In this document: one piece after another, positions 35,400-35,619 of the stretch
Layout: every line of letters begins with the position of its first letter
Numbering within the stretch: position 1 is the first letter of the stretch
Origin: a virus
Strand: one strand, 5' to 3'
Length of the DNA: 35,670 bases
IMG/VR virus record: IMGVR_UViG_3300046169_000058
Location: 1-35,670 of that record
Position numbers and translations under genes: made by a program
Notes under the pieces: model-generated
What the model was told of the DNA's origin: nothing
The model's input: the letters and a program-made list of their open reading frames with translations, nothing else
Databases searched by the model: none

Positions 35400-35447
35400 T
35401 CATTGCAATTGCACCCCGCCGCGCCAAAAGAGGGGGGGGGTCAAACC

Positions 35448-35461
35448 TGACCATCTGGTCA
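35448..35461. promoter_or_regulatory. RutR-type operator, downstream copy
   Basis: TGACCA-TC-TGGTCA, a perfect 6-bp dyad with 2-base centre. It matches 14 of the 14 defined inner positions of TTGACCA-NN-TGGTCAA except for the outermost pair (C/G instead of T/A). It lies about 38 bases downstream of the -10 of the candidate late promoter, where bound protein would be a roadblock. Confidence 0.6.
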
Positions 35462-35498
35462 GAATATGGCCCCGAAACCGGCTGGAATCGCATAATCG

Positions 35499-35526
35499 TT
35501 ATTATGTTAAATAAAATATGCAGCAA
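35499..35526 (-). promoter_or_regulatory. Candidate late promoter for terminase operon
   Basis: Reading leftward: -35 TTGCTG (35521-35526), 16-bp spacer, -10 TAATAA (35499-35504). Same spacer length as the early promoters but no GTTAAC. It would give a leader of about 165 bases before terminase. It lies between the two RutR-type dyads, and its -35 overlaps the left arm of the long stem-loop. Confidence 0.5.
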
Positions 35527-35584
35527 TATCAGCACGTTAGCGTTTTACAACTATTTAAAGTTGTATCGTTGTGCATATTGCTGC
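35520..35584. repeat. Long nested inverted repeat
   Basis: Outer arms GCAGCAATAT (35520-35529) and ATATTGCTGC (35575-35584), inner GCAC/GTGC pairs beside them, and a central hairpin TACAACT (35546-35552) / AGTTGTA (35559-35565) with a 6-base AT loop. It could extrude as a cruciform or bind protein. Located just upstream of the candidate late promoter. Confidence 0.65.
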
Positions 35585-35601
35585 GCTGCGGAGCGTCGAT
35601 A

Positions 35602-35619
35602 TTTGACCATTTGGTCAAA
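35602..35619. promoter_or_regulatory. RutR-type operator, upstream copy
   Basis: TTTGACCA-TT-TGGTCAAA, an 8-bp-arm perfect dyad. It contains an exact match to TTGACCA-NN-TGGTCAA, the consensus known for RutR, the TetR-family uracil-responsive regulator. Its centre is 156 bp from the other copy, and the candidate late promoter lies between them, which would permit looping. Confidence 0.65.

Follow-up and report, generated by a model that had tools for sequence, protein, structure and literature searches.

The noncoding DNA ahead of the large terminase gene (terL) in the virus record IMGVR_UViG_3300046169_000058 carries two palindromes that very likely serve as paired operators of a protein binding DNA as a dimer, and their assignment to the TetR-type class is well supported. 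The sites flank a promoter-like element where the early and late modules of the phage meet. Taken as a whole, the explanation that a TetR-type repressor uses this pair to control an early/late promoter, and that a host regulator reads it, seems to us to have about an even chance of being correct.

Two palindromes ahead of terL

The window, by which we mean the whole stretch of 35,670 nucleotides analysed, is a virus record of linear form that probably lacks part of the genome; all its genes identified by family lie on the minus strand. The gene order is terL, portal, major capsid and virion proteins, followed by an early block of endonuclease, RuvC-like resolvase, parts of exonuclease VIII, an SSB-like protein (assigned as SSB by eye) and primase-helicase. 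We recognised neither an integrase nor a CI-type repressor in the phage, and HTH_3 (CI-type) genes are absent from both the window and its nearest long relative, G001. Because an Sf6-like small terminase gene (terS) precedes the 340-bp gap in relatives, we place the sites in the terS-terL intergenic region. A search of Rfam across this control region returned nothing above gathering score.

Both sites lie in the noncoding DNA 5' of terL, 156 bp apart centre to centre (Table 1). The palindrome TTGACCATTTGGTCAA at site 1 is a full match to the RutR consensus TTGACCANNTGGTCAA, and CTGACCATCTGGTCAG at site 2 deviates at the outer pair, T/A being replaced by C/G. In its degenerate form TGACYRNNYRGTCA, the dyad has two copies in the 35.7 kb window, at sites 1 and 2, against 0.05 expected from dinucleotide shuffles, none of 100 of which reached two copies. 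An earlier note on this DNA had described two palindromes at this spacing with TTGCTG-N16-TAATAA between them; all of this is confirmed, with positions agreeing within one base, and the start and end that it quoted (35448-35619) are off by one.

Table 1. Features of the control region and genes discussed in the text (window coordinates)
Feature	Position	Strand	Remarks
Site 1 (putative upstream operator)	35603..35618	-	TTGACCAAATGGTCAA in terL sense; first base 107 nt ahead of TTTAACATAAT
Dyad TACAACTTTAAATAGTTGTA	35546..35565	-	Further dyad, between both putative operators
TTGCTG-N16-TAATAA	35499..35526	-	Promoter candidate of the earlier note; TTGCTG 35521-35526, TAATAA 35499-35504
Element ATTTAACATAATAACGATTATGC (CATAAT-N4-ATTATG dyad)	35490..35512	-	Presumptive promoter -10 region; family-wide; AACATAAT single copy in window
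Site 2 (putative downstream operator)	35447..35462	-	CTGACCAGATGGTCAG in terL sense; starts 49 nt past TTTAACATAAT start, just ahead of C-tract
C-tract of the terL leader	35432..35440	-	C9 in terL sense (C7-C9 in relatives); nearly whole family, also 5' of terL in phiM5
terL, large terminase subunit, 473 aa	33908..35329	-	PHROG phrog_2 and phrog_5902; first late-module gene in window lineage
P0001 gene, early, 180 aa	8205..8747	-	Predicted OB-like and winged-helix domains; at least 37% identity in six of six GACC-type phages tested

The -10-like CATAAT is present in nearly all relatives, no constant -35 was found among them, and TTGCT[AG] is retained in close relatives only. Of the conjectural late promoter, just the -10-like half, ATTTAACATAATAACGATTATGC, is conserved. 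The ATTTAACATAAT-N4-ATTAT dyad there is nearly family-wide (L002-L273) with a free 4-nt centre and may be an operator or promoter in its own right. Distances from AACATAAT to the C-tract looked quantised, as helical phasing would make them, but this was rejected (Rayleigh p 0.06 for all values, about 0.4 for collapsed events). The C-tract makes the terL leader C-rich and G-poor, resembling a Rho-loading region; in phiM5 the corresponding tract (L313:300-360) lies near the end of the terminal repeat.

Conservation of the pair among related phages

From contigs of related phages we compiled 107 control regions that differ from one another. A GACC-type site 1 is found in 40 of them, and site 2 in 33 of these 40 as opposed to none of the remaining 67; the two sites clearly go together, the regions being kin sequences and not independent counts, so that a Fisher value on them is not a true probability. 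In contigs with TerL 98-100% identical both sites are kept at fixed places. There, nine of the ten columns of the site 1 arms (TGAC / GGTCAA) are invariant, against seven of 44 other columns in the surrounding segment, which is the most variable stretch of the control region. Two site 1 alleles agree at 10 of 38 flanking positions and at all ten arm bases.

Variation outside the arms has the same character. At site 2, TGACC/GGTCA is kept across six spacers (AGAT, GGAT, ATGC, GTTT, GTCT and AGAC), and its position differs by 10 bp between lineages, at +49 or +39 from TTTAACATAAT. The right arm of site 1 is GGTCAA everywhere except in one tandem copy; the left arm varies (TGACC, TTACC, TGACT) and is often imperfect (TTTACC, CTGACT), and the spacer is AANY in most upstream alleles. 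Conserved arms combined with varying spacers and flanks are the pattern expected of a dyad bound by a dimeric protein, and conserved half-sites around a free short spacer are what TetR-type operators display. Ahead of terL in L243 and L405, the place of site 1 is occupied by GACC dyads in tandem, spaced about 18-24 bp.

The pair is not shared by the whole family. Relatives with TerL 81-86% identical retain the promoter element, and in most of them paired GACC palindromes were not found, some having a GAAC-N4-GTTC dyad in their stead, which makes the arrangement lineage- or host-specific. The earlier note had named exactly this, relatives that keep the promoter and not the sites, as evidence against its reading. 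At the place of site 1, 30 other control regions of the 107 have GAAC-N4-GTTC with free spacers, probably a TetR-like design too: PaaR of Thermus has the operator CNAACGNNCGTTNG (PMC6651687). The carriers (L049, L053, L055, L074, L075 and L203-L262) form another clade, and their sites are similar both to TetR sites of the PaaR type and to the LexA box of Gram-positive bacteria. In L201, L242, L243 and L245, a third group, this place holds GACC-N4-GGTC dyads peculiar to them. The remaining 37 of the 107 regions show neither dyad by the same test, and those that could be aligned share little beyond GTCAA there. Despite these differences of dialect, the ATTTAACATAAT-N4-ATTAT element and the C-tract are retained in nearly all regions. 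Comparison by eye revealed no clear correlation between TerS residues and operator dialect.

A search with the early protein P0001 led to phages that match the window mostly at 84-100% identity in their early genes and at only 54-55% in TerL and 37-38% in portal. In this lineage the same control region, with GACC dyads flanking ATTTAACATAATAACGATTATGCG, stands 5' of a different terS-terL module. Since the same region precedes a different late module, we identify it as the junction of the early and late modules, a position that the sites keep ahead of both late modules. The sites go with the early module and, it may be, with the host. L010, in which upstream sequence of the TerL-55% lineage is joined to a window-type terL, is a recombinant at the control region and has no terS directly upstream; in L452 (G027) terS and terL are separated by a gene resembling those of DNA methyltransferases. 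The junction position supports the suggestion that the palindromes flank a late promoter: a co-conserved pair does surround a promoter-like element there, although the -35 half proposed for it is not conserved.

Host regulators and other candidate readers

Several lines of evidence bear on the host. GANTC is the CcrM methylation site of alphaproteobacteria. In the window it occurs 16 times against 61 expected, a fourfold depletion, while control words are near expectation; it is similarly low in G001, G002, G003 and G024 (in G003, three against 75 expected). This depletion points to an alphaproteobacterial host, which we regard as probable. The best cultured relative is the Sinorhizobium phage phiM5 (TerL about 50% and portal 45% identical). 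A search of bacterial genomes yielded only two stray MAG contigs, from Desulfuromonadales and Opitutae (L200, L201), which are uninformative and probably binning errors or contamination.

We compared the phage sites with operators from 5' of rutR-type genes in E. coli and on alphaproteobacterial plasmids. A matrix built on six such operators, host sites only, ranks the window sites first (23.6 bits) and second (16.1 bits), ahead of a third place in the window that scores 15.0. Two phage alleles are identical at 16 of 16 positions to operators ahead of alphaproteobacterial TetR genes. One is the L020 allele, which equals the operator CTGACCAAGCGGTCAA of a Tistrella rutR-type gene (20 positions with flanks); the other, a common phage allele found in L010 and G024, equals the operator-like site CTGACCAACTGGTCAA preceding a BetI-like TetR gene of S. 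meliloti. The Pseudorhodobacter and Roseinatronobacter operators are CTGACCAACCGGTCAA and TTGACCAATCAGTCAA, with dihydropyrimidinase, hydrolase or PreA genes as neighbours, and the E. coli rut operator TGGACTAAACGGTCAA was compared with the L018 allele CTGACTAAACGGTCAA. The asymmetric AANY spacer is present in all five host sites (Tistrella, Pseudorhodobacter, Roseinatronobacter, E. coli, S. meliloti). The pattern YTGACYAANYGGTCAA, shaped in part on phage alleles, has three occurrences in alphaproteobacterial plasmids totalling 8.5 Mb, all of them 5' of a TetR-type gene. Two further rutR-type operators (Sinorhizobium C101 and S. meliloti L292) fit the consensus more poorly; changes of the RutR motif between taxa have been reported (PMC5343134). 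By NCBIfam the alphaproteobacterial proteins score best as RutR, yet under the cut-off.

The earlier proposal of RutR as the reader is borne out in that the sites match operators ahead of rutR-type genes in alphaproteobacteria and E. coli, but this match is not specific to RutR. Because a matching operator also precedes the BetI-like gene of S. meliloti, the class is TetR-type and not RutR alone. None of 19 phage records, the window and 18 relatives, has a TetR_N domain (PF00440), which extends the earlier remark that no TetR-like gene is visible, and reading by a TetR-type protein would therefore need a host reader. A host TetR-family regulator is the likeliest reader, with about an even chance of being so. 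Among single proteins RutR leads, albeit tentatively, with BetI-like paralogues next. Our literature search found no RutR control of phage late genes and no phage target of such regulators.

A reader encoded by the phage is an unlikely competitor. P0001, or another early protein, would bind the dyads and control the early-to-late switch, the likeness to RutR operators being convergent. Among the records tested, the six of GACC type, near-complete or long, all have P0001 at 37% identity or more, whereas nothing in 16 others exceeds 24%; G020 has it at this level though the rest of its early genes are no closer than those of non-GACC phages. Its predicted winged helix has repressor-like matches (ZitR, NolR, ArsR) at weak scores. 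The best fold match of the protein, however, is the Rho RNA-binding domain, no repressor, in a model of modest confidence (mean pLDDT 69). Homologues with the same domains, diverged to 23-24%, are encoded by four dyad-less phages; moreover, P0001 moves with the whole high-identity early block and could merely mark a shared host. The Rho-like best match of its OB-like domain, beside the C-rich leader, hints at Rho-related control. Rather improbable is a role in packaging, in which TerS or a cofactor would bind the dyads near the genome end. The direct terminal repeat of phiM5 ends about 36 bp ahead of terL, adjoining a C9 tract like that of the window, a homology suggesting that genomes may end here, and contig ends of the family pile up near terL, but the dyads are missing from most of a family all of whose members must package. 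The G024 lineage has the same dyads ahead of a quite different terS, and L010 has them with no terS adjacent. The contig ends of L013, L019, L021, L050, L052, L054, L058, L080 and L081 are no more than about 40 bp from the start of terL and could reflect an assembly break or a terminal repeat. We do not read the pile-up as a physical genome end: the ends do not fall at a single base and so may be assembly breaks.

RNA hairpins in the terL leader and the terS 3' end, acting by attenuation or antitermination, are a still weaker contender that we consider very improbable. Site 2 does fold as a 7-bp hairpin immediately ahead of the C-rich leader, where some relatives have other hairpins. Site 1, however, sits 5' of the presumptive promoter, and within the clade the arms are fixed in sequence with no compensatory changes: inner and outer pairs break (C-A, A-C) and the half-sites stay. 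Least probable of all is that chance palindromes were inherited in one clade. By a rough estimate, the occurrence of the exact 16-mer in more than 100 viral contigs is about what chance would give in a collection of that size; the co-occurrence of the two sites, the conservation of arms inside a variable segment and the persistence of the pair across two late modules all disfavour it.

A possible switch and its known parallels

In the scheme that we favour, one dimeric TetR-type repressor would occupy both sites, on either side of the promoter-like element between the early (replication) and late (terminase, structural) modules. Site 1 precedes the ATTTAACATAAT element by about 107 bp and site 2 follows it by about 40-50 bp, a layout that would suit looping; across relatives the spacing between the sites is 146-172 bp without constant helical phase, and simple looping is therefore not favoured. 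The bound repressor would block initiation or elongation, and its departure would allow late transcription. The reader would be an alphaproteobacterial TetR-family regulator of RutR-type specificity, released perhaps by uracil or thymine. Binding, repression, the host origin of the reader and its release by pyrimidines are all steps that we infer from sequence.

More speculatively, and with the odds clearly against it, alphaproteobacterial phages of at least two late lineages may have put the early-to-late switch under a RutR-type pyrimidine sensor of the host. Uracil or thymine set free as nucleic acids are broken down in the infected cell would then license virion production; the dialects of sister phages would perhaps address other host sensors. 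Many marine phages, probably of alphaproteobacteria, carry the putative operator pair, and a host metabolic sensor may help to time virus production in them. If a host TetR-type sensor does gate late genes, host metabolism would help to set when these marine phages lyse the cell, and susceptibility to phage would come to depend on a regulator of catabolism. With the natural alleles and dialects of this one promoter region, one could readily ask which regulator reads which phage.

The window and phiM5 have related TerL and portal proteins and a C-tract directly 5' of terL, but no GACC dyads were seen in the phiM5 leader, where the terminal repeat ends. With the RutR operators of rut and pyrimidine catabolism genes the phage sites share the TTGACC-N4-GGTCAA dyad, the AANY spacer in the upstream site and up to 16 of 16 positions; unlike them, they are paired about 150-160 bp apart in a phage control region and do not adjoin pyrimidine genes. 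Other TetR operators (S. meliloti BetI-like, PaaR) have the same geometry, extending to identity with a phage allele for the BetI-like site and to resemblance between the PaaR site and the GAAC-N4-GTTC dyads of related phages, whereas their ligands and regulons differ. Phages whose switch uses a host repressor are known from LexA-controlled prophages. There, as would be the case here, a stress or metabolic regulator of the host gates phage genes; in those prophages it acts on lysogeny and induction genes, whereas the sites described here flank the junction of the early and late modules.
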